DNA of 64,000 nucleotides from Agrococcus carbonis (GTDB taxonomy: Bacteria > Actinomycetota > Actinomycetes > Actinomycetales > Microbacteriaceae), in assembly GCF_900104705.1 (NCBI RefSeq), contig NZ_LT629734.1, positions 2,666,001 through 2,730,000 of the forward strand. Reading direction: 5' to 3'. The first letter of the stretch is position 1, and the number at the start of each line of letters is the position of its first letter. The translations under genes and the position numbers were made by a program. The notes beneath the pieces were generated by a model, which saw only the letters and a program-made list of their open reading frames with translations, made no database searches and had not been told where the DNA came from. This document shows, in pieces, positions 2,097-62,518 of this stretch.

Positions 2097-2181
2097 GCAT
2101 GCCTCCGCCTGCGGCGAACACGGCCCGGCGCGCGCCCTCCGCTCGCCTAGGGTTGAGAGCAACCGAGAGAAGGAGTCACCT

Positions 2182-3506: not shown

Positions 3507-3520
3507 CGCGCCCGACGACG

Positions 3521-3553: not shown

Positions 3554-3566
3554 TGTCGTGCCGGGC

Positions 3567-4265: not shown

Positions 4266-4386
4266 GCCTCCAGCCTATCGGCGGCGATTCCGGCCCCGGC
4301 GGCGTGGTCGACGGCGGTGTCGGCGGCCTGTTCTACCCTGGAGGCACGGGCGCAGCCTGCGTTCGACGACGATCAAGAGGTGCGAG

Positions 4387-5664
<1,278 letters not shown>

Positions 5665-5709
5665 CGCGCTGACGCTGCGGTGCCGCCCCGAATTGCGCGG
5701 GCGGGTGAG

Positions 5710-5725
5710 GTAAGGCTAGCCTTAC
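5710..5725. promoter_or_regulatory. DtxR/IdeR-type iron box overlapping the ABC importer promoter
   Basis: Perfect 16-bp palindrome GTAAGGCTAGCCTTAC, which matches the core of the DtxR/IdeR operator (TTAGG-TTAGCCTAACC type). It ends 3 nt before the GTG of the siderophore importer ATPase. A possible promoter, TTGCGC (5693-5698) and TAGCCT (5717-5722), lies inside it, so bound repressor would block RNA polymerase. Iron-dependent repression of the downstream operon is inferred. Confidence 0.85.
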
Positions 5726-5728
5726 TTC

Positions 5729-6544
5729 GTGATCACGGGTCCTGAGGCGCTGCGCGCGACCGACGTGTCGCTCGCGTACGGCCGAGAGCGGATCGTCCAC
5801 GACGCATCCGTCGCCCTGACGCCCGGCACCGTCACCGCGCTCGTCGGCCCCAACGGCAGCGGCAAGTCGACGCTGCTGCGCGGCCTCACGGCGCTGCACC
5901 GGCCCACCCACGGCAACGTCGTCTTCGCCGACGGCGCCGACGCGTCGGGCCTGGGGGAGCGCGAGCTCGCGCGCCGCATCGCGCTGCTCGCGCAGTCGCA
6001 TCCCGACCCCTCGGGCGTGAGCGTCCGCGAAGTCGTCGCGTACGGCCGCTTCGCGCACCGCGGGCGCTTCCGGTCGGGCGACCCCGACGGCGCCGACGTG
6101 ATCGACCGCGCCATGGCGGCGACGGGCATCGCCGATCTCTCGGGCCACCCCGTCGCGCAGCTCTCCGGCGGGCAGCGCCAGCGCGTCTGGCTCGCCACGT
6201 GCCTCGCGCAGCAGACGGGCATCGTGCTGCTCGACGAGCCCACGACCTACCTCGACGTGCGCTACCAGCGCGAGATCCTCGAGATCGTGCGCGACCTCGC
6301 CGACGACGGTGTCGCGGTGGGCATCGTGCTGCACGACCTCGAGCAGGCCGCCGAGGTCGCCGACGAGGTCGTGCTGCTCGTGCGCGGCCGCATCCAGGCC
6401 ACCGGCACCCCGCAGGAGGTGCTGACCGCCGAGCGGCTCAGCGCCGCCTACGAGGTGCCCATCGACGTCGAGCCCGTCTCCGACGGCTTGCGCATCCGGC
6501 CCCAGCGGCTCCGCCGCAGGCCGCTCGTGCCACGCGCCGCGTGA
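5729..6544 (+). CDS. Iron-siderophore ABC transporter ATP-binding protein
   Basis: FecE/FhuC-type ATPase that powers ferric-siderophore uptake. 271 aa with Walker [10 protein letters not shown] (40-48), signature LSGGQ (145-149), Walker B IVLLDEP (165-171) and the H-loop in [10 protein letters not shown]. Start GTG 5729 directly follows an iron box and is 6 nt after a TAGCCT hexamer, suggesting a leaderless transcript. The C-terminus is Arg-rich. Order ATPase, lipoprotein, permease in one direction points to a single operon. Which siderophore is carried cannot be told from sequence. Confidence 0.93.
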
Positions 6545-6599
6545 CGCGATCCACCATCGGGCTCGAGGGCTGCGCGCCCCGGGCCGAGGAAGGCTGACC

Positions 6600-7598
6600 A
6601 TGTCCCAGCGAACCCTGACGCGGCCGCTGCTCGCGGGCGCCGCGGTGCTCACCGCGCTCGCCCTCGCCGCGTGCGGCACCACCGAGGCCCCGGCCCAGAG
6701 CTCCGCCCCCGACGCGGCCGGCGAGGCCGTCACGGTCACGGATGCGCGTGGCGAAGCCGTCGAGATCCCGGCAGGCGTCGAGGACGTCGTCGCGCTCGAG
6801 TGGGTGGCCGTCGAGCACCTGCAGACGGTCGGCATCACGCCCGTCGGCGTCGCGGACGTCGCGGGCTACGAGGACTGGGCGGGCGTCGGCGCGCCGCTCG
6901 AGGGCGAGCCGGCCGACGTCGGCACGCGCATCGAGCCGTCGATCGACGCGATCGCGGGGCTCGCGCCCGACCTGATCGTCGCCGTCGCGGGGCGCGACGC
7001 CGGCGCCTACGCCGACCTCGAGGCCATCGCGCCCGTGCTCGTGCTGCAGGGCGCCGACGCATCCGCGCCGATCGAGACGATGTACGACGACCTCCGCCTG
7101 GTGGCCGAGGCCGTCGGGGCCGAGGACGCCGCCGAGACGGCGATCGCCGACTACGAGGCGCACGTCGAGGAGCTCGCGGGTGCCGTCGAGGAGGCCGGGC
7201 TCACCGGCACGCCCGTCGCGCAGCTCGACGGCTACGAGAACGGCGGCCAGGTCGAGATCCGTCCGTACGCCGACGGCGCGCTGCTGCCCGCCGCGTTCGA
7301 GTCGATCGGCTTCGTCAACGGCTGGCCGGGCGAGGGCGACCCGCAGTACGGGCTCGGCGTGACCGACGTCGAGGGCCTCACCGCGCTCGACGACGAGGCG
7401 CACATCGTCTACATGACGGTCGGCGACCGCGACGTCTTCACCCAGCAGCTCGCCTCCAACGCGATCTGGAACGAGCTGCCCTCGGTGCAGGCCGGCAAGG
7501 TGCACCGCCTGCCCGACGGCATCTGGCTGTTCGGCGGCGTGCACTCGCTGACCGCCTACCTCGACGCGCTCGTCGAGGCCCTCGCGCCCACGCCGTGA
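6600..7598 (+). CDS. Iron-siderophore ABC transporter substrate-binding lipoprotein
   Basis: Surface-anchored binding protein of the FecB/FepB (TroA-fold) type. The signal peptide ends in the lipobox ALAAC, with Cys25 as the lipidated residue. The mature part has the two-lobed pattern of the family: an early segment with VTDARGEAVEIPAGVEDVV and a middle segment (SIDAIAGLAPDLIVAV) typical of iron-siderophore binders. 332 aa. RBS GAGGAAGG lies just upstream of ATG 6600. The stop overlaps the permease start by four bases (GTGA), so lipoprotein and permease are coupled. Confidence 0.93.
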   Translation: MSQRTLTRPLLAGAAVLTALALAACGTTEAPAQSSAPDAAGEAVTVTDARGEAVEIPAGVEDVVALEWVAVEHLQTVGITPVGVADVAGYEDWAGVGAPLEGEPADVGTRIEPSIDAIAGLAPDLIVAVAGRDAGAYADLEAIAPVLVLQGADASAPIETMYDDLRLVAEAVGAEDAAETAIADYEAHVEELAGAVEEAGLTGTPVAQLDGYENGGQVEIRPYADGALLPAAFESIGFVNGWPGEGDPQYGLGVTDVEGLTALDDEAHIVYMTVGDRDVFTQQLASNAIWNELPSVQAGKVHRLPDGIWLFGGVHSLTAYLDALVEALAPTP

Positions 7599-9625
7599 CG
7601 CGCGTCCGACCGGGAGGGCTCACGCTCGGCGCGGCCCTCCTCGTCGCGCTCGTGCTGCTCTCGGGCTGGCACGCCACGCAGGGCACCACCGACCTCGGGG
7701 TCGACGAGCTGCTGGGCTGGCTCGGTGGTGAGCGCGGCCACGCCGCCGTCATCGTCGAGAGCCGGCTGCCGCGCATCGCCGCAGCGATCGTCGTCGGGCT
7801 CGCGCTCGGCGCCGCCGGCTATGCGATGCAGACGCTCACCGGCAACCCGCTCGCCTCGCCCGACACGCTCGCCGTCAACGGGGGAGCGGGGGCGGCGATC
7901 GCGTTCGCGGCGGTCGCGGGCATCAGCCTGCCGGGCATCGGCGGGGCAGGCATCGCGTTCGCGGGCGGGCTGCTCGCCGCCCTCGCGGTCGTGGCGATCG
8001 GGCGCGGCCGCGGGTCGACGACGCAGATGGTGCTCGTCGGCACCGCGCTCGCGCTCGCGCTGCAATCGGTCGTGACCGTCACGATCATCCTCAACGAGCA
8101 GGAGACGGCGGGCCTCTACGCGTGGGGCGTGGGCCGGCTGTCGCAGAACGGCATCGACACGGTCGCGCAGCTGCTGCCCGTCGTGCTCGCCGGCATCGCG
8201 GTGCTCCTGGTGCTCTCCCGTCGGCTCGACGTCCTCTCCCTCGGCGAGGAGGCGGCCACGACGATCGGCGTCGGCGTCGGCCGCCTGCGGCTCGGCACCC
8301 TCATCGCTGCCGTCGCGCTCGCCGCCGCTGCGGTCGCGATCGCCGGGCCCATCGGCTTCGTGGGGCTCGCGGCGCCCATCGTCGTGCGGATGCTCGCCGC
8401 TCGCATCCCCGGCGCCGCTCGGCACGTGGTGGCGATCCCGCTCGCCGCGCTCGCCGGCGCCGTGCTCGTCGTCGGCGCCGACGTCCTGCTGCGCGCCGTG
8501 CTGCCCGGCTCCGCCTCGCTCGACGTGCCCACGGGCGTCGTCACGAGCCTCGTCGGCGCAGTCTGCATCATCGTGCTCGCCCGCACGATGGCCGGCGCTG
8601 CCGAGACGGAGTCGATGACGGTGCTCGGTGCGCGCACGCTCGCCCGCCGGGCGTGGCCGCCGATCGCGATCGGGGCCGTCGTGCTCGCGGCGCTCGTCGT
8701 GGCAGCGGTGCTGCTCGGCGACCGCATGCTGCTGCTCGGCGACGTCGCCAACTGGCTCGCGGGCCGCGCCGGCGACGCGGTGCGGCTCTCGCTCGACTCG
8801 CGCGCGCCGCGCGTCGCCGCGGCTGTGCTCGCGGGCACGGCGCTCGCGCTCTCCGGCGCGCTCGTGCAGGCGGTCGCGCGGAACGCCCTCGCCGAGCCCT
8901 ACCTGCTCGGCGTCGCGGGCGGCGCGGGCCTCGGCGCGGTCGGGATCATCACGCTCGTGCCGGTCGCGACAGGCTGGGCGGTCGCGGGCAGCGCCCTCGC
9001 CGGCGGTGCGCTCGCCGGCGTCGTCGTGCTGCTGCTCGTCGGCTGGCGCCGGCTCGGGAGCCTGCGGCTCGTGCTCACCGGACTCGCGCTCTCGGCGGCG
9101 ACCGCCGCGCTCACGAGCATGCTCATCGTCGTCACCGACCCGTGGAACCGCGGCAAGGCGATCGTGTGGCTCGCCGGCAGCACCTACGGGCGCGGCTTCG
9201 AGGACGTCGCGCCGGTCGCGGTCGCGATCGTCGTCGCCGTGCTCGCGCTCGTGTGGATGCACCGCGACCTCGACCTCGCGCAGCTCGACGAGGCGACCCC
9301 GCGGCTGCTCGGCGTGCGGCTGACGGCCGTGCAGATCACCGCGCTCGCCCTCGCGGTCGTCCTCGCCTCGACGGCGGTCGCCGCGATCGGGGTCGTCGCG
9401 TTCGTGGGGCTCGTGGCCCCCCACGCGGCGCGCGCGCTCGTGGGCGCGCGGCACCGCGTGCTGCTGCCGCTCGCGGCGCTGCTCGGCGGCTCGCTCACGC
9501 TGCTCGCCGACACGCTCGGCCGCACCCTCATCGCGCCCGCGCAGCTGCCGGCGGGCATCATGACGGCCCTCGTCGGCATCCCCTACTTCATCTGGCTCGT
9601 GCTGCAGGCCGGCCGCGCGCGGTAG
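7595..9625 (+). CDS. Iron-siderophore ABC permease, two FecCD domains fused
   Basis: Integral membrane permease of the FecCD family in which two permease units are fused head to tail (676 aa), as in FhuB. The duplicated landmarks can be paired: NPLASPDTLAVNGGAG in the first half with NALAEPYLLGVAGGAG in the second, and GPIGFVGLAAPIVVRML with GVVAFVGLVAPHAARAL, the coupling loop that contacts the ATPase. About 18-20 membrane helices are expected. GTG 7595 overlaps the lipoprotein stop and is the start that gives the first transmembrane helix straight away. One polypeptide replaces the usual permease heterodimer. Confidence 0.93.
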   Translation: MTRVRPGGLTLGAALLVALVLLSGWHATQGTTDLGVDELLGWLGGERGHAAVIVESRLPRIAAAIVVGLALGAAGYAMQTLTGNPLASPDTLAVNGGAGAAIAFAAVAGISLPGIGGAGIAFAGGLLAALAVVAIGRGRGSTTQMVLVGTALALALQSVVTVTIILNEQETAGLYAWGVGRLSQNGIDTVAQLLPVVLAGIAVLLVLSRRLDVLSLGEEAATTIGVGVGRLRLGTLIAAVALAAAAVAIAGPIGFVGLAAPIVVRMLAARIPGAARHVVAIPLAALAGAVLVVGADVLLRAVLPGSASLDVPTGVVTSLVGAVCIIVLARTMAGAAETESMTVLGARTLARRAWPPIAIGAVVLAALVVAAVLLGDRMLLLGDVANWLAGRAGDAVRLSLDSRAPRVAAAVLAGTALALSGALVQAVARNALAEPYLLGVAGGAGLGAVGIITLVPVATGWAVAGSALAGGALAGVVVLLLVGWRRLGSLRLVLTGLALSAATAALTSMLIVVTDPWNRGKAIVWLAGSTYGRGFEDVAPVAVAIVVAVLALVWMHRDLDLAQLDEATPRLLGVRLTAVQITALALAVVLASTAVAAIGVVAFVGLVAPHAARALVGARHRVLLPLAALLGGSLTLLADTLGRTLIAPAQLPAGIMTALVGIPYFIWLVLQAGRAR

Positions 9626-9627
9626 CG

Positions 9628-9687
9628 GCTGCGGGTCACGGGGCAGCAAGTCACGGGGCTGCGGGTCACGGGCTGCGGGTCACGGGC
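9628..9687 (+). repeat. Four-fold tandem repeat of a 14-15 bp unit
   Basis: Four imperfect head-to-tail copies of a unit reading GCTGCGGGTCACGGG lie just after the permease stop. The last copy forms the stop and final codons of the convergent aspartate dehydrogenase gene, so copy-number change would alter that protein's C-terminus. Confidence 0.8.
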
Positions 9688-10501
9688 CAGCGGCGCCGTG
9701 ACCCCGCCGAGCGAGCCACGCGCGCACGTCGGCCGCCACCGCCTGCGCGGTCAGCGCGCTCGTCCGGGGGTTCGCGCGCGAGGGCCGGTTGCCGATCTCG
9801 AAGCGGTAGGCGCCGCTCGAGCCCTCGGCCCCGATGACGTGGGTGGAGGTGTCCGTGCGCGGGTCGGCGACGATGCGCACCCGGACCCTCGCGAGGCCGT
9901 CGGCGATGTCGCCGAGCCCGCGCGCCGCGATGCCGAGCGCGACCGCGACGTTGACGTTCCCGGGGAACCGCTCGATCGCCTCCGCGGGCGTGCCGTCGAA
10001 GAGCAGCTCCGGCTCGGCGAGACCACGGATGCGGGCGGCCTCCGCCGCACCCATCCACGGCTGCACGAGCGACGACGCGGTCTTCGTCGTCGTGATCGTC
10101 GCCCGGTCGAGGCCGCCGGCCTGCGCCGCCGCTCGGATGAGGTCGAGCCCGCCGATCGCGCCGCTCGTCAGCACGAGCTCGCCGGGCCCTCCGAGCAGCG
10201 CTCGCGCGACCTCCGCATCCGCGAGCGCGCCGACGCTCGTCACGAGCAGGGCGGTGCCGGCCGCGACGAGCGCCGGGCCGTGCTGCCGCGCGGCGGCCAC
10301 GCCGGCGCACTCGACGACCAGGTCGCGGGCCGCTGCCTCGCCGATCGGGACGAACCCGCCGGGCGGCGACGGGTGCCGCTCGGGGTGCCGCACGACGGCA
10401 CCCGCGAGCTCGACGACGCCTGCCTCGCGCTCGGGCGCGAGGTGCTCGACGAGCTCGCGGGCGATGGCCCCGTAGCCGATCAGGGCGATGCGTGCCGTCA
10501 T
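9680..10501 (-). CDS. Aspartate dehydrogenase (NadX/DUF108 family)
   Basis: NAD(P)-dependent L-aspartate dehydrogenase, which makes iminoaspartate for NAD synthesis or deaminates aspartate. 273 aa. An N-terminal Rossmann fold has IALIGYGAIARELVEHL. The second domain carries the family hallmark FPGNVNVAVALGIAARG (about residues 186-202) and the catalytic-region histidine in STHVIGAEG. The last residues (GHGAAGP) are encoded by a tandem repeat. It lies 37 nt downstream of the M3 peptidase on the same strand and may be co-transcribed. No nadA or nadC is near, so pathway placement is inferred from the family only. Confidence 0.85.
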   Translation of the reverse strand: MTARIALIGYGAIARELVEHLAPEREAGVVELAGAVVRHPERHPSPPGGFVPIGEAAARDLVVECAGVAAARQHGPALVAAGTALLVTSVGALADAEVARALLGGPGELVLTSGAIGGLDLIRAAAQAGGLDRATITTTKTASSLVQPWMGAAEAARIRGLAEPELLFDGTPAEAIERFPGNVNVAVALGIAARGLGDIADGLARVRVRIVADPRTDTSTHVIGAEGSSGAYRFEIGNRPSRANPRTSALTAQAVAADVRAWLARRGHGAAGP

Positions 10502-10509
10502 GGCTCTGT

Positions 10510-10556
10510 GCTACCCCTGGAGCCCGCGCTGCGCCGCGCTACCCCTGGAGCCCGCG
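10510..10556. repeat. Duplicated 19-bp end of the M3 peptidase gene
   Basis: The 19-mer GCTACCCCTGGAGCCCGCG occurs at 10510-10528 and again at 10538-10556. The second copy holds the stop and last codons of dcp; the first is in the short gap before the aspartate dehydrogenase start. This looks like a small tandem duplication of the gene end. Confidence 0.8.
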
Positions 10557-12572
10557 GCGCTCGAGCAGCGGCGCGATCTCGGCGTCGCGGCCGCGGAAGT
10601 CGCGGAACGCCTCGAGCGGATCCTTCGAGCCGCCGACGCCCAGCAGCCGCTCGCGGAACCGCTGCCCGGCCTCGCGGATGGACGGCTGCTGCTTGAACCA
10701 CTCGACGGTGTCGGCGTCCATGACCTCCGACCAGATGTAGGAGTAGTAGCCCGCCGAGTAGCCGCCCGAGAACACGTGCTGGAAGTAGCCGGTCGAGTAG
10801 CGCGTCGGCACCGTCTCGCTCAGCAGGCCCACGGCGTCGAGGGCGTCGCGCTCGAATGCCGCGACATCCGTCACCTCATCGCCCGCGGTGCGCGCGTGCC
10901 ACGCCTGGTCGAGCAGCGCGGCGGCGAGGTACTCGCTCGTGTCGTGCCCCTGGTTGAACGACTCCGACGCCTGCAGCCGCTCGATGACGTCGGCCGGCAG
11001 CGGCTCGCCCGTCTCGATGTGCTTGGCGTAGTGGTCGACGATGCCGGGCCACAGCATCCACATCTCGTTCACCTGGCTCGGGAACTCGACGAAGTCGCGG
11101 AAGACGTTCGTGCCGCCGAGCGACGGGTAGGTGACGCGCGCGAAGAGCCCGTGCAGCGCGTGCCCGAACTCGTGGAAGAGGGTCGTCGTCTCGTCGAACG
11201 TCAGCAGCGTCGGCGTGCCGGCCGGGGGCTTCGGCACGTTGAGGTTGTTCATCACGACGGTCGGCTGCCCCAGCAGCGCGTTCTGCTGGATGAGCGAGTT
11301 CATCCACGCGCCGCCGCGCTTCGAGTCGCGCGTGTAGAGGTCGAGCAGGTAGAGGCCGACCTCGGAGCCGTCCTCGTCGCGCACCTCGAACACCCGCACG
11401 TCCGGGTGGTAGCCGACGAGGTCGTGACGCTCCTCGAACGTGATGCCGTACACCTGGGTCGCGGCGTAGAAGACGCCGTCCCACAGCACGCGCTCGGCCT
11501 CGAAGTAGGGCCGCAGCGCCGCGGTGTCGACGTCGAAGCGGGCGGTGCGCTCCTTCTCGGTCCAGTAGTCCCAGTCCCACGCGGCGAGCTCGTACGACTC
11601 GCCCGCCGACTCGATCTGCGCCTGGAGCGCCGCCGCCTCTGCGCGCGCGTTGACAGCCGCGGGGGCGGCGAGCCGCGTGAGCATCGCCATGACGGCGTCG
11701 GGGGAGCCGGCGGTCTCGTCGGCGGTGATCGCGTGCGCGTGCGTGGCGAACCCCAGCAGCTGCGCGCGCTCGGCGCGGAGCGCGGTGAGCTCGAGCACGG
11801 TCGCGCGGTTGTCGTGCTCGTTGCCGCGCGTGCCGCGCGCGAGCGAGGCCTCCATGATGCGGCGCCGCACGTCGCGGTTCGTGAGCGACGCGAGCCACGG
11901 GTGGCCCGAGAACAGCGGGAGGGTGACGAGGTGCTTGCCCTCGAGGCCTCGGTCGGCGGCGGCGGCCGCGGCGGCCTGGATCTCACCGTCCGAGAGGCCG
12001 TCGAGCTCGGCGGCGTCGTCGATCACGACCGCGAGGTCGTTGGTGTCGGCCTGCAGGTGCTTGTCGAAGCGCGTCGTGAGCGTCGCGATCTGCTGGTTGA
12101 GCTCCTTGAGCCGCTCGCGCGCCGCATCGTCGAGGCCCGCGCCCGCCACGGTCATCTCGGTGTGCTGGCGCTGCACGAGGTAGCGCTGCTCCGCGGTCCA
12201 GGATGCGTCGGGCTGCTCGTGCAGGGCGCGCACGCGCGCGTAGAGGCGCGGGTCGAGCGTGATCGAGTCGGCGTGCGCGGCGAAGCGCGGCGCGTAGCGT
12301 TCCTCGAGCTCCTCGAGGAACGGCGTCGAATCGGTCGAGGTCATGCTCCAGAACACGTGCGCGACGCGCGAGAGCGTCTGGCCGCTGCGCTCGAGCGCCT
12401 CGATCGTGTTCTCGAACGTGGGCGCGTCGTCGGCCTCGACGATCGCCTGCACCTCGCGCGTCTGCTCCTCGAAGCCCGCCTCGAGCGCCTCCTCGTAGTG
12501 CTCGTCGCGGATGTCGGCGAACGGCGGCAGCTGGTAGGGGAGCGCGCTGGGCGTCAGGAAGGGGTTGGTCAT
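10539..12572 (-). CDS. dcp: Peptidyl-dipeptidase Dcp, M3 family metallopeptidase
   Basis: Zinc oligopeptidase that trims dipeptides or digests short peptides in the cytoplasm. 677 aa, the usual length. The zinc-binding HEFGHALHGLF motif lies near residues 465-475, followed by the third ligand region FVEFPSQVNEMW. The N-terminal PFLTPSALPYQLPPFADIRDEHY is typical of Dcp rather than PepF. The start is set at ATG 12572, which opens MTNPFL; longer frames add 30 residues overlapping the divergent methyltransferase promoter and are unlikely. No signal peptide is visible. Confidence 0.93.
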   Translation of the reverse strand: MTNPFLTPSALPYQLPPFADIRDEHYEEALEAGFEEQTREVQAIVEADDAPTFENTIEALERSGQTLSRVAHVFWSMTSTDSTPFLEELEERYAPRFAAHADSITLDPRLYARVRALHEQPDASWTAEQRYLVQRQHTEMTVAGAGLDDAARERLKELNQQIATLTTRFDKHLQADTNDLAVVIDDAAELDGLSDGEIQAAAAAAADRGLEGKHLVTLPLFSGHPWLASLTNRDVRRRIMEASLARGTRGNEHDNRATVLELTALRAERAQLLGFATHAHAITADETAGSPDAVMAMLTRLAAPAAVNARAEAAALQAQIESAGESYELAAWDWDYWTEKERTARFDVDTAALRPYFEAERVLWDGVFYAATQVYGITFEERHDLVGYHPDVRVFEVRDEDGSEVGLYLLDLYTRDSKRGGAWMNSLIQQNALLGQPTVVMNNLNVPKPPAGTPTLLTFDETTTLFHEFGHALHGLFARVTYPSLGGTNVFRDFVEFPSQVNEMWMLWPGIVDHYAKHIETGEPLPADVIERLQASESFNQGHDTSEYLAAALLDQAWHARTAGDEVTDVAAFERDALDAVGLLSETVPTRYSTGYFQHVFSGGYSAGYYSYIWSEVMDADTVEWFKQQPSIREAGQRFRERLLGVGGSKDPLEAFRDFRGRDAEIAPLLERRGLQG

Positions 12573-12625
12573 GCGATCCACCCTAAGCGGCGGCCGAGGC
12601 AGCGACTTGGCTATACAGTCTGCGT

Positions 12626-13420
12626 ATGACCGCTGCAACCTACACGCATGGCCACCACGCATCCGTGGTGGCCGCGCATGCCGCCCGCACCGTCGCGAAC
12701 TCCGCCGCCTACCTGTCGCCGCTCGTGGAGCCGGGCATGCGGATCCTCGACGTGGGCTGCGGGCCGGGGTCGATCACGATCGACCTCGCCCGTCGGGTGG
12801 GGGATGCGGGGCTCGTCGTGGGCATCGACGCGAGCGCCGAGGTGGTCGAGACCGCGCGTGCCGCGGCGGCGGAGGCCGGGATCGTCAACGCCGTCTTCGA
12901 GGTCGGCGACGCCTACGACCCCACGCCCGCCGAGCGCTACGACATCGTGCACGCGCACCAGGTGCTGCAGCATCTCGGCGACCCGGTCGCGGCGCTGCGC
13001 GCGTGGCGGGCGGTCGGCGAGGTGGTCGCGGCGCGCGACGTCGTCTACTCGGCGACCACGATCCATCCGCTCACGCCCGAGCTCGCGCGCTGGCGCGACC
13101 TCGTCGGCCGGCTGCAGTCGGCGAACGGCGGCGACGGCGACGCGGGAGCCAAGCTGAAGGCGTGGGCGCGGGCCGCGGGCTTCACGAGCATCGAGACCGA
13201 CGTCGAGACGTGGTGCTTCGAGACGCAGCGGGGCCGGGACTTCTGGGGCGGGCAGTGGGTCGAGCGCGCGCTGCACTCGGCCTTCGCCGACGGCACCGAG
13301 CGGCTCGGGCTCGCGGATGCGGCGGAGCGCCAGGCGATCTCCGACGCGTGGGCGGCGTGGCAGCGCGACGAGGACGGCTGGATGGCCATGCTGCACGGGT
13401 GGATCCTCGCGCGGGAGTGA
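12626..13420 (+). CDS. Class I SAM-dependent methyltransferase
   Basis: Methyltransferase of unknown substrate, 264 aa. The SAM-binding motif I is ILDVGCGPGSITIDLA (about residues 39-54), followed by motif II acid VVGIDASAEVVE and motif post-I/III segments YDIVHAHQVLQHLGDP. The C-terminal half is Trp-rich and resembles small-molecule (UbiE/biotin-like) methyltransferases. TATACA at 12612-12617 lies 8 nt before ATG 12626 with no RBS, indicating a leaderless mRNA. It diverges from dcp and converges on the 77-aa gene, with a repeat pair between. Confidence 0.85.
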   Translation: MTAATYTHGHHASVVAAHAARTVANSAAYLSPLVEPGMRILDVGCGPGSITIDLARRVGDAGLVVGIDASAEVVETARAAAAEAGIVNAVFEVGDAYDPTPAERYDIVHAHQVLQHLGDPVAALRAWRAVGEVVAARDVVYSATTIHPLTPELARWRDLVGRLQSANGGDGDAGAKLKAWARAAGFTSIETDVETWCFETQRGRDFWGGQWVERALHSAFADGTERLGLADAAERQAISDAWAAWQRDEDGWMAMLHGWILARE

Positions 13421-13430
13421 CGCCACGCTC

Positions 13431-13620
13431 GGTCGTCGAGTAGCCCCGAAGGGGCGTATCGAGACGCAGGTGATGGGTCTCGATACGGCCGGCTACGCCG
13501 GCCTACTCGACCAGCGTGACCACACTCGGTCGTCGAGGAGCCCCGAAGGGGCGTATCGAGACGCGGGTGGCGGGTCTCGATACGGCCGGCTGCGCCGACC
13601 TAGTCGACCAGCGTGGCGGA
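13431..13620. repeat. Two tandem copies of a 97-bp palindromic intergenic element
   Basis: Copies start at 13431 and 13528. Each has an arm reading GTCGAGTAGCCCCGAAGGGG then TATCGAGAC, a short spacer, then GTCTCGATA and a complementary arm ending CTACTCGAC, plus internal hairpins CCCCGAAGGGG and GCCGGCTACGCCGGC. It fills the gap between two convergent genes; a half element of the same family lies at 32733-32766 and a relative at 44597. Confidence 0.85.
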
Positions 13621-13621
13621 C

Positions 13622-13855
13622 CTACGGCTGCTCGCGCGTGACGAGCACGTCGTCCCCGTCGAGCCGGATCGTCGTGCCGTCGTCGAGCTCGACGACGGGC
13701 TGGCCCTCGAGGAAGGTGAGCGTCCACCGCCACGCGGCGGTGTCGGCGCCGAGCTCGACGAGCGTGCGCTCCTCGTCGGCGATCGCCGCGCGCATCGCGA
13801 CCGGCACCGCGGCCGGCGGCTCGCCGCCGACCGGCCAGCGGGTGCCGATCTGCAT
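13622..13855 (-). CDS. Hypothetical 77-aa protein coupled to valS
   Basis: Small cytoplasmic-looking protein of unknown function (77 aa). Its ATG at 13855 overlaps the valS stop (TGATG), so it is translationally coupled to valyl-tRNA synthetase. No signal peptide or membrane segment. The sequence alternates acidic and hydrophobic residues (WRWTLTFLEGQPVVELDDGTT), suggesting a beta-rich fold. Codon use matches its neighbours, supporting a real gene. Confidence 0.65.
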   Translation of the reverse strand: MQIGTRWPVGGEPPAAVPVAMRAAIADEERTLVELGADTAAWRWTLTFLEGQPVVELDDGTTIRLDGDDVLVTREQP

Positions 13856-16455
13856 CAGGCCTCCTCGAGCACGATCTCGCGCACGGCGAGCTCGTCCGCC
13901 TCGACGAGCTCGAGGTCCTGGATGCGGCCGACGGCGCGCAGGTCGCCGGCGGCGGCCTCGAGGTGCTCGCGGAGCGCCCCGGGGACGGCGATGACGGCCG
14001 ACGCGACGGGCGTCTTCTGGCTCGCCTTCGCATCCGTCTTCGCCCGGCGGATGCCGATGAGCGCGCGGCCCACCGTGTCGAGCATCCCGGTCGCCCCCGC
14101 GCCGAGCTCGCCGTTGCCGAGCTCCTCGGGCGTCGGCCACGCGCTCACGTGGATCGAGCCCTCGTGCGACCACGACCAGACCTCTTCGGTCGCGAACGGC
14201 AGGAATGGCGCGAGCAGGCGCAGCTGCACGTCGATCGCGAGGCGCAGCGCCGCGATCGCCGAGCCGCGTCCGGCCGCCTCGCCCGTGTAGGCGCGCTCCT
14301 TGACGAGCTCGAGGTAGTCGTCGCAGAACGTCCAGAAGAAGCCTTCCGTCACCTCGAGGGCCTTGGCGTGGTCGTACGACTCGAACGCGCGCGTCGCGGC
14401 GCGCACGACGTCGGCGAGCTCGGCGAGCATCTCGCGGTCGAGCCGCTCGGTCACGTCACCGGGCTGACCCTCCATCGAGAGCACGAACTTCGCGGCGTTC
14501 AGCACCTTCATCGCGAGGCGCCGGCCGATCTTGATCATCTTCGGGTTCTGCGGGTCGAGCGTCGCGTCGACGCCGAGCCGCGACGACGCCGCCCAGTAGC
14601 GCACGCCGTCGGAGCCGTGCTCCTCGAGCATGCCGAGGGGCGTGACGACGTTGCCCTTCGACTTCGACATCTTCTTGCGGTCGGGGTCGAGGATCCAGCC
14701 CGAGAGCGCCGCGTGCTTCCACGGGGCCCGGCCGTCCTCGAACATCGAGCGCAGCAGGGTCGAGAAGAGCCAGGTGCGGATGATGTCCTGGCCCTGCGGC
14801 CGCAGGTCGAACGGGGTGATCTGCTGCCACAGCGCCGAGTCGTCGGCCCAGCCGCCGGCGAGCTGCGGGGTGAGCGACGACGTCGCCCACGTGTCCATGA
14901 TGTCGACCTCGCCCTCGAAGCCGCCCGGTGCGCCGCGCTGCGACTCGTCGAAGCCCGCGGGCACGTCGGTCGAGGGGTCGAGGGGCAGCTGGTCGGGCGT
15001 CGGCAGCAGCACGTCGCCGGGGATGCGCTCGCCCGCCTCGTCGAGGCGGTACCAGACCGGGATCGGCACACCGAAGAAGCGCTGGCGCGAGATGAGCCAG
15101 TCGCCGTTGAGGCCCTGCACCCAGTTCTCGTAGCGCGTGCGCATGTGCTCGGGGTGCCACGCGATCTCGCGCCCGTGCCCGATGAGCCGCTCCTGCAGCT
15201 CGGTGTCGCGACCGCCGTTCTTGATGTACCACTGCAGCGTCGAGACGATCTCGAGCGGCTTGTCGCCCTTCTCGTAGAACTTCACCGGGTGCTGGATGGG
15301 CTTGGGGTCGCCCACCATGCGGCCGGCGGCCTGCAGCTGCTCGACCATCGCCTTCTTCGCGCTGAAGACGGTCTTCCCGGCGAGCTCCGCGTAGGCGGCC
15401 TTCGCCGCGTCGCTCGCGAGCGCCTCGGGGGCCTCGGCGACGAAGCGGCCGTCGAAGCCGATCACCGAGCGGCTCGGCAGGTCGAGCTCGCGCCACCAGA
15501 TGACGTCGGTCACGTCGCCGAACGTGCAGATCATCGCGACGCCCGTGCCCTTGTCGACCTGGGCGAGCTCGTGCGCGACGAACGGCACCTCGACGCCGAA
15601 CACCGGCGTCGTCACCGTCGTGCCGAACAGGTGGCGGTAGCGCTCGTCGTCGGGGTGCGCGACGACGGCGACGCACGAGGGCAGCAGCTCCGGCCGCGTC
15701 GTCTCGATGCGGAGGTCGCCCTCCTCGCTCGTGAAGAGCAGCGTGTGGTACGCGCCGGGCTGCTCGCGATCCTCGAGCTCGGCCTGGGCCACCGCGGTGC
15801 GGAACGTGACGTCCCACAGCGTCGGCGCATCCGCCTGGTACGCCTCGCCCCGCTCGAGGTTGCGCAGGAACGCGAGCTGCGACGTGCGCCGGGCGTCGTC
15901 GGAGATCGTGCGGTACGACTGCTGCCAGTCGACCGAGAGCCCGAGCGTGCGCCACAGGTGCTCGAACTTCTCCTCGTCCTCCTCGGTGAGGCGCTCGCAC
16001 AGCTCGATGAAGTTGCGGCGCGAGACGGGCACCTGGTCGGCGGCCTTCGCGCTCTTGCCCTCGCCGCCCTCCTGCGGGGGCGTGAAGTCGGGGTCGTACG
16101 CGAGCGTCGGGTCGACGCGCACGCCGTAGTAGTTCTGCACGCGGCGCTCGGTCGGGAGGCCGTTGTCGTCCCAGCCCATGGGGTAGAAGACGTGCTTGCC
16201 GCGCATGCGCTGGTAGCGCGCGATGAGGTCGGTGTGCGTGTAGGAGAACACGTGGCCGACGTGCAGCGAGCCCGATGCGGTCGGCGGCGGCGTGTCGATC
16301 GAGTAGATCGCGTCGCGCTCGAGCGGGGCGCCGTCGGCGCCGACGCCATCGAAGCGGTAGGTGCCGGCCTCCTCCCAGCGCTGGCCCCACTTCTCCTCGA
16401 GTCCTTCGAGGGCGGGCTTCTCGGGCATGCCGGATGCGGCGGGCTGGGCGCTCAT
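13855..16455 (-). CDS. valS: Valine-tRNA ligase
   Basis: Class I aminoacyl-tRNA synthetase that charges tRNA-Val and edits misactivated threonine. 866 aa from ATG 16455. The HIGH-type motif is SLHVGHV (about residue 54), the KMSKS motif is DRKKMSKSKGNV (about residue 598), and a CP1 editing domain lies between. The chain ends soon after the anticodon-binding domain without a long C-terminal coiled coil, so it belongs to the shorter ValRS type found in this group of actinobacteria. A small membrane protein is encoded just upstream and a 77-aa protein is coupled downstream. Confidence 0.97.
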   Translation of the reverse strand: MSAQPAASGMPEKPALEGLEEKWGQRWEEAGTYRFDGVGADGAPLERDAIYSIDTPPPTASGSLHVGHVFSYTHTDLIARYQRMRGKHVFYPMGWDDNGLPTERRVQNYYGVRVDPTLAYDPDFTPPQEGGEGKSAKAADQVPVSRRNFIELCERLTEEDEEKFEHLWRTLGLSVDWQQSYRTISDDARRTSQLAFLRNLERGEAYQADAPTLWDVTFRTAVAQAELEDREQPGAYHTLLFTSEEGDLRIETTRPELLPSCVAVVAHPDDERYRHLFGTTVTTPVFGVEVPFVAHELAQVDKGTGVAMICTFGDVTDVIWWRELDLPSRSVIGFDGRFVAEAPEALASDAAKAAYAELAGKTVFSAKKAMVEQLQAAGRMVGDPKPIQHPVKFYEKGDKPLEIVSTLQWYIKNGGRDTELQERLIGHGREIAWHPEHMRTRYENWVQGLNGDWLISRQRFFGVPIPVWYRLDEAGERIPGDVLLPTPDQLPLDPSTDVPAGFDESQRGAPGGFEGEVDIMDTWATSSLTPQLAGGWADDSALWQQITPFDLRPQGQDIIRTWLFSTLLRSMFEDGRAPWKHAALSGWILDPDRKKMSKSKGNVVTPLGMLEEHGSDGVRYWAASSRLGVDATLDPQNPKMIKIGRRLAMKVLNAAKFVLSMEGQPGDVTERLDREMLAELADVVRAATRAFESYDHAKALEVTEGFFWTFCDDYLELVKERAYTGEAAGRGSAIAALRLAIDVQLRLLAPFLPFATEEVWSWSHEGSIHVSAWPTPEELGNGELGAGATGMLDTVGRALIGIRRAKTDAKASQKTPVASAVIAVPGALREHLEAAAGDLRAVGRIQDLELVEADELAVREIVLEEA

Positions 16456-56077: not shown

Positions 56078-56791
56078 CTACGCCTGCTGCAGGCGCTGCT
56101 TCGCCATCGCCACCGCGAACGCCTCGACCTTGGGTGTGCGCCCGTGCACGAGCATCGTGTCGCCTGCCTCGAAGCGCGTCTCGGCGTTCGCCAGCACCCA
56201 CGCTCCCTCGCGCTTGACGGCGCCGATGCCGACGCCGTGCTGCTGCTGCAGGTTCAGCTCCCGCAGCGGCACCGCCGCGAGCGACGCCGGCACCTCGAGC
56301 CGCACCGCCGCGTAGCCCGGTTCGATCTCGATGAAGTCCTCGACGGCGCCGCGCACCATGTGGGCGACGCGCCGGCCCATGTCGGCCTCGGGCCGCACGA
56401 CGTGGGTGACGCCGAGCTGGTCGAGGATGACCGCGTGCCGCTCGTCGACGGCCTTCGCCCACACCTGTCGCACGCCCACCCGCAGCAGCTGGCTCGTGCA
56501 GAGGATGGAGGCGGTCACGTCGGTGCCGATCGCCACGACGACCCGATCGAAATCCGCGAGCCCGAGCTGCTCGATGAGCTCTGGCTGCGTCGCGTCGCCG
56601 GCCACGACGCCCGTGAGCCGTCCGTTGAGGGCCTGCACCGCATCCTCTCGGTCGTCGATGCCGAGCACCTCGGTGCCGTTGGCCATGAGCTCGAGCGCGA
56701 GCGCGCTGCCGAAGCGGCCGAGCCCGATGACGGCGACCGAGGTCGCCGAGCCGATCGTGCGCGGGTCGAAGGGGTTGCGGAGCCTAGCCAA
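56078..56791 (-). CDS. trkA: TrkA/KtrA family potassium channel regulatory protein
   Basis: 237-aa cytoplasmic gating ring subunit. Rossmann RCK_N domain VAVIGLGRFGSALALELM with acidic GIDDRED, then a TrkA_C domain in the last 80 residues (VPLRELNLQQQHGVGIGAVK; TMLVHG). The only suitable start is TTG 56791, which lies 8 nt inside the truncated trkH frame and has GGGGGAAAGG 7 nt before it. It looks intact while its normal channel partner is cut, so it may serve another channel or be on the way to decay. Confidence 0.85.
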   Translation of the reverse strand: MARLRNPFDPRTIGSATSVAVIGLGRFGSALALELMANGTEVLGIDDREDAVQALNGRLTGVVAGDATQPELIEQLGLADFDRVVVAIGTDVTASILCTSQLLRVGVRQVWAKAVDERHAVILDQLGVTHVVRPEADMGRRVAHMVRGAVEDFIEIEPGYAAVRLEVPASLAAVPLRELNLQQQHGVGIGAVKREGAWVLANAETRFEAGDTMLVHGRTPKVEAFAVAMAKQRLQQA

Positions 56792-57419
56792 TGACGGGCC
56801 TTTCCCCCATGAGGTTGTCGCTGAAGAGCGCGAAGCCCGCATTGTTGTAGCTCGAGACCGCATGGAAGACGGCGAGCCAAAGCGCGTGCAACGGATCCTC
56901 GCCGCGGCCGAGCCAGAAGCGCGCGAAGAGCGCGAGTGCCACGACGCCCTCGACGACGAGCGCGATGCGCAGGATGCTCACGACCACCGTGCGCACGCCG
57001 CCCGGGCCGTCGAGGTGCGTCTCCTGGGCGGTGGTGATGCGTGAGCCGAGCGTCAAGCGACGCACCACGAAGATGCCGATGAGGCTCGCGAAGACCATGA
57101 CGCCGAGGCCGCCGAGCTGGATGAGCAACAGGATGACGACCTGGCCGAACGGCGTCCAGTAGAGGGCGGTGTCGACGACCGTCAGGCCCGTCACGCAGGC
57201 GGCCGAGACCGCGGTGAAGAGCGCTTCGATCCAGGTGGCCGCGCCGCTGCCCTGACGGGAGACGGGCAGCATGAGCAGCGCCCAGCCGACGAGGTTGAGC
57301 AGCACGAAGCCGCCGAAGATGCGCCTGGCGGGATGCTGTCGCTCCCACAGCTGGATGAGACCCGGACGTGCCCGGCCTGTCGTCTGCACGAGCGCCGAGC
57401 ATACGCCTGTCGGCCGCAT
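56784..57419 (-). pseudogene. trkH: TrkH potassium uptake channel, C-terminally truncated
   Basis: N-terminal 211 residues of a TrkH/KtrB-type channel from ATG 57419 (GTG 57389 also possible). The first two pore repeats are present, with selectivity-filter regions TAVSAACVTGLTVVDT and FHAVSSYNNAGFALF. The frame then ends SDNLMGERPVIG and stop, just where trkA begins. The usual protein continues for about 250 more residues with two further pore repeats, all missing here. Neither of the other minus frames resumes TrkH, so this is a deletion and not a frameshift. A channel with two of four repeats cannot form a normal pore. Confidence 0.8.
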
Positions 57420-59228
57420 CCGGCGCACCTGCGGATGTGACACGCGGCTGTGCGGCCATGTATAGTGGCAGGGTTGCTCCGACAGCGTCGGAAGCGGCTC
57501 TGGGTCTGTGGCGCAGCTGGTAGCGCACCTGCATGGCATGCAGGGGGTCGGGGGTTCGAGTCCCCCCAGATCCACCGCACGCACAAGGCTCGAACCCTTG
57601 CCAACGGAAACGTTGGTCGAGGTTCGGGCCTTGTTCGCGTCTGCGGCCCAGGTCAGGGCGTTGGCGTTGACCTGCGGATCGAGGAGCATCTCGAAGGGCC
57701 GGTTGTGCTCGACGCGCAGCTCGTTGTCCTCGTCGATGAAGACCTTGGTGAAGAAGGCCTGGTTGCACAGGCGCCGGTTGGTGTCGTCGCAGCGGGTGTA
57801 GATGTTGGCGCAGTTGGCGAGTAGGCCGAGGGCGTCGTCGAGGTGGGCTCGGGCGTCGGCGTAGTCGCCGAAGTGGGCGTCGATGCGGCGGGTCACTTGG
57901 TTGAGTTCGACGACGATTCGGTCCTGCTCGCGCTTGAGCACGGAGAGCGGGATCGCGTCGGCGTAGTGCGCTTGCATGAGGCGGTCCTGCTCGCTTTCGA
58001 GCCGGTCACGGTTGGTGGTGAGGCGTTCCAGTTCCTCGGTTTCGACGGCCATGAGCCGGTCGAACTCGTGGTGGAGCATGCCCGCGAGGGCGTCCTGCTG
58101 GGCGGGCGTGATCTGGACGCGGGTGTAGTAGTCCTCGACGAGCTTCTCGACGTCTTCGATGAGCATCGCCTGGCGTGTGCAGTCGGTGCGCTTGGAGTGC
58201 CGACCGGAGCACACGAAGTAGCAGTAGACGTTGCCGTGGCGGTTCTTCGCGTTGGAGACGATGAGCCGGGAGCCGCACTGGCCGCAGTGGATGGTGCCTT
58301 TGAGGTAGTGGCCGTGGACTTGGGTTGCCTCGACGGCGCACTGGTGCGCGGTGAGCACGGACTGTACCTGGTACCAGACCTCGGCTGGCACGAGTGCCGG
58401 GTGGCTTCCCTTGTAGCGGGTGCCCCTGTAGATGACATCGCCCTTGTAGTACGGGTTGGTCAGGAGCCGATGGATGGTGGATACCGCCAGAGGCTTCGCC
58501 GGCCTCTTCGGCGTGGGCAGGCTGCGCAGCCCGCGCGAGGTGAGTTCGTCGTGGAGTTGGCTGACGCTCCAGTTGCCCGAGGCGTACGCCTTGAACGCCC
58601 ACTCGATCATCGGTGCTCGCTCGGGATCGAGCTCGATGGTGCGGACTTCGCGCCCGAGCTCGTCGCGCTTGCGGACGTTCAAGTAGCCGATGGGCGCGCG
58701 CCCGTTCGTGCCGCCGCCGATGGCCTTCTGGTTCATGCCCTTGGCGACCTCGGTGGCGAGGTTGCGGGAGTAGAACTCGGCGATGGTGGACATGATGCCG
58801 TGCAGCAGCATCCCGGAGGGGGTCTCGTCGATGTTCTCGGACGCAGACACGAGCATGACCCCGCACTGTTGGAGTGCGAGGTGGATACTCACGTCGTCGG
58901 CGCGGTTGCGGGCGAGCCGGTCGACCTTGTGAACGATGCAGTACGCGACCTTGTTGGCCTTGACATACTGGATCATCCGCATCAGCTCGGGCCGGTCGGA
59001 CGACTTGGCTGAGGCTCCCGCGTCGACGAACTCCTCGACGATGCCGGCGCCGAGCTGTTCGGCCTTACGCCGGGTCGCTTCGCGCTGGGCAGGGATCGAG
59101 AAGCCTTCGTCGGTCCCGCCCTTCTCGGCCTGCTCGCGGGTGGAGACCCGCAGGTACGACACGGCGGCAGCCGCAGTCTTGGGCGGGTCGATGAGGCTGG
59201 CTGCCGGATCGTCGGCAATGGTGGTCAT
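56784..59228 (-). CDS. Large serine recombinase, frame running on through tRNA-Ala into trkH
   Basis: Site-specific recombinase that probably excises and integrates the element. Catalytic Ser29 in SYLRVSTREQ; resolvase domain to about 165 (HKVDRLARNRADD), recombinase domain about 190-300 (GRAPIGYLN to PYYKGDVIYRGTRYK), zinc ribbon CGQCGSRL...C about 315-350, coiled coil about 390-450. The recombinase part covers 57575-59228 (about 551 residues). It meets no stop before the tRNA, so the open frame continues antisense through tRNA-Ala and through trkH to the TAG at 56784, 814 codons in all. Whether the long product is made is unknown; the natural stop may have been lost on integration. Confidence 0.85.
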   Translation of the reverse strand: MTTIADDPAASLIDPPKTAAAAVSYLRVSTREQAEKGGTDEGFSIPAQREATRRKAEQLGAGIVEEFVDAGASAKSSDRPELMRMIQYVKANKVAYCIVHKVDRLARNRADDVSIHLALQQCGVMLVSASENIDETPSGMLLHGIMSTIAEFYSRNLATEVAKGMNQKAIGGGTNGRAPIGYLNVRKRDELGREVRTIELDPERAPMIEWAFKAYASGNWSVSQLHDELTSRGLRSLPTPKRPAKPLAVSTIHRLLTNPYYKGDVIYRGTRYKGSHPALVPAEVWYQVQSVLTAHQCAVEATQVHGHYLKGTIHCGQCGSRLIVSNAKNRHGNVYCYFVCSGRHSKRTDCTRQAMLIEDVEKLVEDYYTRVQITPAQQDALAGMLHHEFDRLMAVETEELERLTTNRDRLESEQDRLMQAHYADAIPLSVLKREQDRIVVELNQVTRRIDAHFGDYADARAHLDDALGLLANCANIYTRCDDTNRRLCNQAFFTKVFIDEDNELRVEHNRPFEMLLDPQVNANALTWAADANKARTSTNVSVGKGSSLVRAVDLGGLEPPTPCMPCRCATSCATDPEPLPTLSEQPCHYTWPHSRVSHPQVRRMRPTGVCSALVQTTGRARPGLIQLWERQHPARRIFGGFVLLNLVGWALLMLPVSRQGSGAATWIEALFTAVSAACVTGLTVVDTALYWTPFGQVVILLLIQLGGLGVMVFASLIGIFVVRRLTLGSRITTAQETHLDGPGGVRTVVVSILRIALVVEGVVALALFARFWLGRGEDPLHALWLAVFHAVSSYNNAGFALFSDNLMGERPVIG
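57437..57466 (+). promoter_or_regulatory. Promoter of tRNA-Ala
   Basis: GTGACA (57437-57442), 18 nt, TATAGT (57461-57466), about 36 nt before the tRNA. On the opposite strand TATACAT overlaps, a possible -10 for trkH. Confidence 0.65.
57502..57574 (+). tRNA. tRNA-Ala (anticodon GGC)
   Basis: 73-nt cloverleaf: acceptor GGGTCTG/CAGATCC (one G-U pair), D arm GCGC-AGCTGGTA-GCGC, anticodon arm CCTGC-ATGGCAT-GCAGG with GGC at 57535-57537, T arm GGGGG-TTCGAGT-CCCCC, discriminator A. The CCA end is not encoded. Its 3' end marks the left limit of the mobile element. Confidence 0.97.
57584..57633. other. 50-bp interrupted palindrome at the element border
   Basis: Three nested arms share one centre: CAAGGC/GCCTTG, GAACC/GGTTC and CCAACG/CGTTGG around a GAAA loop. 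It lies 10 bp from the tRNA 3' end, at the 3' end of the recombinase. It could be the attachment half-site or a terminator for the recombinase gene; on the minus strand it also encodes the last recombinase-side residues. Confidence 0.55.
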
Positions 59229-60739: not shown

Positions 60740-62518
60740 TCAGGAGGCGGGACGGTGGCGCAGAAGCGCTTCGAGTTCGTCGCGGTCAGTGCGGAGCTGC
60801 GCTGCGTCGGGCCGGGTCGGCCAGGCGCGCAGGTCGGTGACGATGGGCGGCGCAGAGCGCAGCATCGTGATGCCGGTGCCGAACGGCAGTGTTCGGATGC
60901 GGTCTGGCGGCAGGATCGGGACGCGGCGGATCGAGCGCTGATTCGAGCGGGTGCCGTGGTCGCCGAGGGTCACGCTGTCGGTGTGCTCGTCGCGCTCTCC
61001 GATGAGCGTGGAGAGGTCTTGGAGGTCACGGCTGTTGGATGCGCCGCCGAGGATGATCTTGACGATGCTGGCGTCCCAGATCGCGCCGGCCTGATGCTCA
61101 CTCCACCTGTCGCGAGCCTGGGCGAGGGACTGCAAGACCGGCATGGTCGTGATCCCGGTGCCGCCACCTTCGGCCATGAGCGTCGGCAGTGACGGCAGCG
61201 GCGCGAGGTTTCCGATCTCGTCGAGCGCGAGCAACAGCGGCGGGTCGAGCCGGGCTCCCGGTGAGCGTGCCGCGAGTCGGCGGGCGGTTTCGATGAGGTC
61301 TTCGACGAACGCCGCGACCAGCGACGTGGGGGCTCCCGCTCCGGCACCGGTGGCGAGCAGGTAGAGGGTGCCTTGTTCGGTGAGGAAGGTCTCGGGGTCG
61401 AAGTGTTCGTGCGGTCCTGGCGTGACAGCATCGAGTACGCGCGGGTCGGCGAGGGCTGCGAGCGCGAGGGAGACGCCTTGCCAGATGCTGTCGCGGGTCT
61501 TGGGGTCGGCGTCGATCATCGCGGCTAGCGAGTCGTCCCAGCCCATCGCGGCGTTCGGGTGCGAGTTGAGGATCGCGACGGCCTCCGACGCCGCGCTGGG
61601 ATCAAGAGTCCACCTGAACAGCTCGGCCGGCTGGCGGCCGTCGAGCGCGGCAGCGTGCAGCAGGCTCTGGAGTGCTGTGCGGGTCTTGCCCTCCCAGAAC
61701 CCGCCGGACTCGACCCCGCCAGCACTGAGGCCTGTGGCGGCGGCGAGGCCGTTGGCGCGGATCATCGCGGTCAGCGGATCGTCGCACCCGCGAATGGGCG
61801 ACCAGCGCAGCCCGGCGGGGATGCCCTCGGCGAGGTGTTGCGGGTCGAACACGGCGACCGGCCCGCCCTTGCGGCGTCGGTCGCGGAGGGTCGCGGTGAG
61901 GTTATCGGGCCTGGTGCTGGTGGTGACGACCGCTCCGGGTGCGTCGAGGATCGCGTTGATGACGACATGCAGGCCCTTGCCTGAGCGGGGCGGGCCGATC
62001 AGCAGGATCGAGTCTTCGACCGATGCCCAGACCTTCGTTCCACGACTGGCACCGAGCAGGTAGCCGACATCCTGCGGTGCTGGCGACTCCAAGGAGGGCC
62101 GCAGCGTGGCCGCGCGGTGAAGCAGTGCTTTCGCGGATGCGGCGGTCTTGACCTCGTGGCTGGTCGCGATCCCCGCCAGTCGGTGCGGGTCGGTCTCTGT
62201 CTTCCGCGTGTGGCGGCGCAGCACGATCCACACCCAGACGATCCCGGCAGCGAGTCCGCCGAGCAGTGCCGTGCTGACAAGCCAGTAGACGACCGGGTTG
62301 AGTCCGTCGGCACCGAGCGCGGTCGCTGGATCGCCGGGGTTGAACAGTACGGCGAGCCCCGCCGCTGCGCCGGCGTCTGGTTGCGGTGTGCCGGTGAGGA
62401 ACGCGGCGACGCTACCAGCGGCGCGGAGGGCGAGAGCGATCCCGAACATGCCGATCAGGCCAATGAGGGCGGCATTGGTGAGTTCGTCGCCCATGCCCGC
62501 GGCTTGCCGCTGGTTCAT
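60740..62518 (-). CDS. Type IV coupling protein (VirD4/TraG-like ATPase)
   Basis: Inner-membrane ATPase that passes DNA-relaxase complexes to the conjugation channel. 592 aa. Two membrane helices (about 15-42 and 75-100), Walker A GPPRSGKG (175-182), Walker B LLALDEIGNLAPLP with Asp433 and Glu434, then the TraM-recognition segment QSLAQARDRWSEHQAGAIWD. ATG 62518 overlaps the stop of the preceding gene (ATGA). Confidence 0.9.
   Translation of the reverse strand: MNQRQAAGMGDELTNAALIGLIGMFGIALALRAAGSVAAFLTGTPQPDAGAAAGLAVLFNPGDPATALGADGLNPVVYWLVSTALLGGLAAGIVWVWIVLRRHTRKTETDPHRLAGIATSHEVKTAASAKALLHRAATLRPSLESPAPQDVGYLLGASRGTKVWASVEDSILLIGPPRSGKGLHVVINAILDAPGAVVTTSTRPDNLTATLRDRRRKGGPVAVFDPQHLAEGIPAGLRWSPIRGCDDPLTAMIRANGLAAATGLSAGGVESGGFWEGKTRTALQSLLHAAALDGRQPAELFRWTLDPSAASEAVAILNSHPNAAMGWDDSLAAMIDADPKTRDSIWQGVSLALAALADPRVLDAVTPGPHEHFDPETFLTEQGTLYLLATGAGAGAPTSLVAAFVEDLIETARRLAARSPGARLDPPLLLALDEIGNLAPLPSLPTLMAEGGGTGITTMPVLQSLAQARDRWSEHQAGAIWDASIVKIILGGASNSRDLQDLSTLIGERDEHTDSVTLGDHGTRSNQRSIRRVPILPPDRIRTLPFGTGITMLRSAPPIVTDLRAWPTRPDAAQLRTDRDELEALLRHRPAS

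Follow-up and report, generated by a model that had tools for sequence, protein, structure and literature searches.

The Int protein of the Myxococcus phage Mx8 is a tyrosine recombinase. Its attP site is reported to lie inside the int gene, and integration creates a new int 3′-end and changes the specificity of the enzyme (PMC6070905; cited in PMC4383910). In the ‘suicidal’ archaeal integrases of the SSV type the recombination site, too, is described as internal to the integrase gene, and integration splits that gene (PMC8371274). For serine recombinases the nearest known case is DsiB of the Dehalococcoides ssrA islands, a protein reported to have a frame that overlaps attL and finds its stop only outside the island; its authors suggested that it is perhaps fully functional only on the circle, and left the 3′-end of the circle form open (PMC3146451). 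Serine recombinases in tRNA genes are described as rare, with actinobacterial integrative and conjugative elements (AICEs) in tRNA-Leu and phage phiRSM1 in tRNA-Ser (PMC3218068), and the Islander paper of 2014 gives serine integrases as not known to target tRNA genes (PMC4383910). In engineered fusions of serine integrases to a recombination directionality factor (RDF), the added domain is reported to be able to set the direction of the reaction (PMC5737554). Here we analyse a conjugative-type element of Agrococcus carbonis inserted at a tRNA-Ala(GGC) gene, whose large serine integrase (LSR) gene appears to be split by integration. Its left end lies in a stretch of 64,000 bp (positions 2666001-2730000 of contig C1, NZ_LT629734.1, of a one-contig genome of 2.77 Mb), called the window below.

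The minus-strand frame 59228..56784 of the window runs for 814 codons without an internal stop before it meets a TAG at 56784. Up to the att core it encodes the integrase, with Pfam matches above gathering scores to Resolvase (3.3e-30), Recombinase (5.1e-13) and Zn_ribbon_recom (2.4e-09), in that order, which is the domain succession of a large serine recombinase. The frame then reads the whole tRNA-Ala(GGC) gene in antisense. A first-pass annotation made from the letters alone had described a recombinase of about 551 residues with no stop at its own end, continued in the same frame through the whole tRNA gene to this TAG; translation bears out both statements, with 551 codons up to the core. 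It had offered two explanations: either the stop was lost on integration, or the C-terminus is completed by host DNA and differs between integrated and excised forms.

Joining the two ends of the element in silico shows that the predicted attP lies within one open frame, in which 551 integrase codons are followed by the core, then by a linker of about 50 codons and lastly by a C-terminal helix-turn-helix (HTH) part. The integrase frame crosses the core at codon 551 (core-spanning stretch ..SSLVRAVDLRREFEN..) and runs for 164 codons more, giving 715 aa in total as compared with 814 aa in the integrated state. The tail past the core (VDLRREFENPC...MAQTLLRPEQVDDLVAQYREGATLVELASRFGVNRRTV...) ends with a tandem HTH domain, and joining the ends of a related element in genome G014 gives the same tail. 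Since the recombination site falls within the coding frame, integration would swap HTH codons for host codons and alter the predicted protein. The second of the two explanations is thus the one that fits, both by the reconstructed lengths and by the natural unsplit loci and proteins described below. The finding that had been named as speaking against it, an attP that provides a stop at the same residues, is not borne out by the joined junction, where the frame goes on into the HTH.

An HTH fold is the only feature that profile search, AlphaFold and Foldseek revealed in the tail. In the close relative L131 the tail has weak matches to HTH families, below Pfam cut-offs. AlphaFold models it as two three-helix units with a mean pLDDT of 65.9 and most HTH blocks at 70-86. 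A Foldseek search with this model gave no match at E <= 0.001 (best E 0.017, query TM 0.24), and several of the top, weak matches are tandem-HTH transposase or paired domains.

Unsplit copies of the predicted frame occur in nature. Among the best 120 of 4738 protein homologues, sorted into tail classes by regular expressions and by eye, 73 carry antisense-tRNA-like tails, 37 tails of tRNA-His type, six an in-frame HTH (P0010, P0011, P0025, P0036, P0054 and P0087) and four other tails. A second search, with the P0011 tail as query, gave besides P0011 just one protein, the further LSR-HTH protein P0122, whose integrase shows 53% identity over 522 residues. At the DNA level, locus L110 from a Propionicimonas metagenome-assembled genome passes from a left end like that of the A. 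carbonis element through the junction into a similar right end, and L115 (Sediminivirga) follows the A. carbonis left end almost to the core, stopping no more than 2 bases short of it, and continues into an HTH. The sequence of L155 (Tessaracoccus) looks like a tandem array of integrase, junction, HTH, second integrase and tRNA-Ala; L166 and L037 have an HTH after the core, and L118 ends 27 bases beyond the aligned integrase, within a P′-like arm (VDLRRDF). In the plasmid and phage collections no record had one place covering 80% of the query, and all best places were below 60% identity, so these collections yield no named circle record of this family.

The linker between core and HTH was compared in 11 loci (the A. 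carbonis element, L131, L132, L064, L150, L110, L115, L155, L166, L037 and L087), where the phase of L131, L132 and L064 was judged from the core and no integrase end is paired with L150 and L087. Within 120 nt after the core a stop occurs in 0/11 loci in the integrase phase, as against 9/11 and 10/11 in the other two phases. Non-synonymous divergence (dN) is below synonymous divergence (dS) in 7/7 scorable pairs: dN/dS values are 0.02/0.22, 0.36/1.05 and 0.45/1.32 for the A. carbonis linker with L131, L132 and L110, and 0.25/0.52 and 0.31/1.30 for L155 with L037 and L166. The phase is maintained across HTH tails of different sequence types.

Several observations weigh against reading integrase and HTH as a single protein. 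Some linker pairs are weak (0.71/1.17 for L155-L087, 0.54/1.05 for L064-L150), and for the A. carbonis linker with L064 dN is 0.69 with dS saturated. The linker begins with codons that overlap the P′ arm, itself constrained as DNA, though the ratios are still <1 beyond 13 codons; the 11 loci of the test are also mutually related. In L110, L132 and probably L166 the HTH frame has apparently broken off part-way, and the L155 integrase has an interruption upstream. For G004 and G011, the 60 kb upstream of the integrase yielded no HTH relative. In G014 the two ends lie on separate contigs and the integrase piece is 88% identical, so that element is a mosaic. In-frame start codons precede the HTH in 10/11 loci, including a Met just past the core in three type-B loci, and in those 10 a separate HTH gene is possible. 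Such a gene might be reached by the int promoter only in the circle, the open frame then being incidental or serving translational coupling, and the integrase tail would be irrelevant in both states; the post-integration tails of 4 to 384 residues, which give the tail an unselected look in the integrated state, would agree with this. Yet L064 has no in-frame start codon at all ahead of the HTH, the linker is open in 11/11 loci in the LSR phase against 2/11 and 1/11 in the others with dN < dS, and the phase stays the same whatever the type of HTH tail, which together make a separate gene unlikely.

Integration cuts the integrase-HTH frame at the core, after which the integrase frame runs into the antisense tRNA and the following host DNA (here to 814 aa, by chance), and the HTH part is left at the other end of the element, severed from the integrase start. 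We propose that the circle makes a protein of integrase and HTH together, which would promote integration and/or regulate the element in its circular form. The integrated element would make only an HTH-less, host-tailed integrase, which may serve excision, probably with a directionality factor, or may stay quiet. The state of the element would thereby be written into the integrase gene. We regard the anatomy, with attP inside one integrase-HTH frame, as highly likely, and translation of integrase and HTH as one protein as probable. Taken as a whole, an integration-split frame with two-state use is held with good confidence to be the best explanation. The role itself is put forward more tentatively: a circle fusion that integrates and/or controls the circle, and an HTH-less, antisense-tRNA-tailed form after each integration, such that the state is recorded in the protein and sets direction across a widespread actinobacterial family, may or may not hold. 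What the HTH does we infer; a role as directionality factor would place the fusion in the wrong state, because the engineered integrase-RDF fusions are reported to favour excision (PMC5737554).

The geometry of the att sites was read on the integrase strand, with offsets taken relative to the first G of GTGGA, the core. The attP joined in silico has GGGTTC at –22 and the inverse of this, GAACCC, at +23. The copy of GAACCC that belongs to the tRNA T-arm stands at +18 in attL, shifted 5 bp inward. A rule reported for serine integrases places the zinc-ribbon motif of attB 5 bp further inward (PMC3783163); the shift seen here fits it and was counted in favour of the split-frame explanation. P, P′ and the tRNA half of attB fit, and the other attB half has no clear motif. 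The conserved tRNA T-arm is a likely recognition sequence, which would explain the use of many tRNAs by one family. Across loci the offsets, anchored on an upstream GTGC in most loci and with L146 missed, attest constant spacing only, the modal values being found in 46 and 45 of 48 loci.

The lack of a stop extends well beyond A. carbonis. From genome contigs 109 relatives were collected and 80 kept, and two from viral contigs brought the set to 82 loci; a tRNA was counted if it is antisense with its 3′-end at –20 to +120 nt from the aligned integrase end. By this measure 63/82 loci are flanked at the integrase end by a tRNA in antisense (Ala 36, His 12, Lys 6, Arg 4, Val 3, Leu 2), and the remaining 19 comprise unsplit forms, broken copies, contig ends and unresolved cases. 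In 60/63 the frame meets its first stop at or past the 3′-end of the tRNA (32 inside the tRNA, 28 past it); L157 has a stop before the tRNA 3′-end, and in two loci the frame runs off or is still open after 400 codons. For the tRNA-His elements of G004 and G010 this stop is a TGA supplied by the acceptor sequence of the tRNA, and in tRNA-Lys elements it comes from the 5′ part of the tRNA. A tail of 4 to 384 residues can be read in 47 of the 49 tRNA-flanked loci aligned to residue >=548, and the integrase tails look unselected and dependent on the host site. The missing stop is thus no accident of the A. carbonis genome. That it was lost there by mutation on or after integration, the first explanation of the first-pass annotation, has in its favour that GC-rich DNA yields long frames by chance, as in the join to trkH considered below; with a stop-less end in 60/63 loci and none before attP in the joined circle either, we consider a lost stop very improbable.

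An integrase frame interrupted at attP is of a known kind: it is established for the tyrosine integrases of Mx8 and SSV and suspected for DsiB, and the new points are the HTH, the breadth and, for an LSR, the junction in circle form. The A. carbonis integrase shares with Mx8 Int an attP within the coding sequence; it differs in being a serine integrase of a conjugative-type element with many tRNA targets, from which an HTH domain is lost. In the SSV tyrosine enzymes, as described, the split takes off the part with the catalytic domain, whereas here the catalytic integrase stays whole and only the accessory HTH goes. The A. carbonis enzyme works like these integrases but belongs with neither by descent, since its domains are those of a serine recombinase. 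DsiB is set apart by its published description, as CcrB-like and targeting ssrA, rather than by sequence, and the present analysis goes beyond it in reconstructing the junction and identifying the extra domain. The AICEs and phiRSM1 resemble this family in tRNA insertion; the passages on them speak of no split integrase, and the present family uses six tRNA isotypes. Engineered fusions, as reported, are artificial and their RDF promotes excision, whereas the natural integrase-HTH fusion exists in the excised or tandem state. Among the matches listed from titles and abstracts of CC-licensed PMC papers, none dealt with a serine integrase frame that crosses attP into an HTH.

How a serine integrase chooses between integration and excision is central both to its biology and to its use as a tool. 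A DNA-binding domain lost exactly on integration would, if real, make control by state testable with two proteins and four att sites. The circle-form end left open for DsiB in 2011 is answered here for another serine family, and six tRNA isotypes in one family run counter to the 2014 Islander statement as given there (PMC4383910). Odd C-termini of database recombinases (‘GLEPLTP..’) are explained as antisense tRNA peptides, so that an annotated integrase end should not be taken for the end of the circle form.

The right end of the element was found beyond the window, at the other side of the contig join. The contig is circular and untrimmed: positions 1-15151 repeat 2750754-2765901 at 99.9%, followed by a fold-back copy (G000:C1 to 2773210), which is an assembly artefact. 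Neither the last 50 kb of the contig nor a search near the element for a displaced tRNA fragment, the signature of tyrosine integrases, gave an attR, and tblastx of the high-GC flanks yielded only noise as to the element end. Once the contig ends were shown to overlap, attR could be located at C1:34697-34701, which sets the element at about 61.9 kb ((2750753-2723575)+34701 = 61,879 bp, +/- assembly errors in the overlap). The right end at 34701 reads GGGGTTCTCAAACTCTCTACGGAGGTCCAC then CAAAACCCCCTCCTGAGG; its host side matches the tRNA-Ala terminator of the uninterrupted relative L027 (CCACCA AAACCCCCG), and host synteny with relatives is taken up again at about 35.4 kb, across the join. G014 has the same right end, at 98.7-99.7% over 17 kb, next to different host DNA: the two right ends are identical up to TCCAC and diverge after it. 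The G014 integrase end sits in tRNA-Ala(CGC), and its attL flank matches the A. carbonis tRNA-Ala(CGC) locus (74% over 940 bp); its attR flank gave no match to that locus. For the G004 and G011 elements attR was not found. The untrimmed ends and fold-back copy of the contig might suggest that the ends or the junction are themselves artefacts of assembly. The attL lies well within the contig, the right end is seen again in G014 and, at 83% amino-acid identity, in L131, and attL-type ends occur in 63/82 loci; such an error is extremely unlikely.

Between attL and attR the element carries the integrase, a TrwC relaxase (Pfam 9.7e-89) and a TraG-type coupling protein, the set of an integrative conjugative element. 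Gene content and att sites together show it to be a predicted conjugative-type element inserted at the 3′-end of tRNA-Ala(GGC). Beyond the window 18 of its open reading frames were scanned and the mating apparatus is partly annotated; other matches, one HTH apart, include an ArdC-like protein, a heavy-metal P-type ATPase, a mercuric-reductase-like protein and an Nramp transporter, and a ParB match falls below the cut-off.

Table 1. Positions of the integrase, its attachment site and neighbouring features in the window
Feature	Position	Strand	Basis or remark
Large serine integrase (LSR)	57576..59228	-	551 codons up to the att core; start ATG 59228
tRNA-Ala(GGC), attB gene	57502..57576	+	ARAGORN; empty sites in relatives
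att core TCCAC (GTGGA on the integrase strand)	57571..57575		Common to attL and attR; basis: A. carbonis attR and G014 attR
attL	57553..57600		Host half with the tRNA T-arm motif; element (P) half with GGGTTCGAG
Inverted repeat ACAAGGC..GCCTTGT	57583..57634		Integrase 3′-end beside attL, overlaps P arm; read from sequence
trkH N-terminal part	56784..57389	-	Pfam; reached by the integrase frame; start codon tentative
TraG/VirD4-type coupling protein	60740..62518	-	Pfam TraG-D_C 6.3e-28, T4SS-DNA_transf 9.4e-23

The in-frame join to TrkH that the first-pass annotation had described stands as a continuous frame, with Pfam TrkH at residues 664-806 of the 814, after the recombinase domains. It covers the N-terminal part of TrkH only: 762 bp (254 codons), in frame, that are present in trkH of G019 and G013 are absent from the A. 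carbonis gene. The 155-bp stretch from core to trkH stays stop-free in 35% of 20,000 mononucleotide shuffles, and of eight tRNA-Ala/trkH regions tested in relatives, seven were scorable, with trkH in the integrase phase in 1/7 and a stop there after 39 codons. By these counts the open join of integrase to trkH is a product of chance. A functional, membrane-tethered integrase-TrkH fusion, for which the single uninterrupted 814-codon frame could speak, was rejected on the shuffles, the phase and closing stop in relatives and the partial deletion of trkH, and its probability is practically nil. The trkH deletion point lies at 56805/56806, leaving the N-terminal part just before trkA, with only a couple of G’s common at the junction.

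Insertion also took away the encoded CCA end of tRNA-Ala (now CCG; 57571-57580), so the tRNA depends on CCA addition, and its terminator has been displaced by about 62 kb (G000:C1:34702-34730). The strong inverted repeat at 57583-57634 lies within the last integrase codons, and similar repeats are found in other elements; it could act as a terminator of the displaced tRNA. In G018 (L045:8484-8834) an HTH tail of this kind lies some 8.4 kb downstream of tRNA-Ala(GGC), a sign of a further element in that site. In Nesterenkonia sphaerica (L087:4361-5736) an HTH-type right end stands 1.4 kb past an integrase end, which suggests two elements side by side. Small relatives of about 9 kb (L131:2243-11650 and L132:2710-11650) seemingly have the same HTH end and integrase end.

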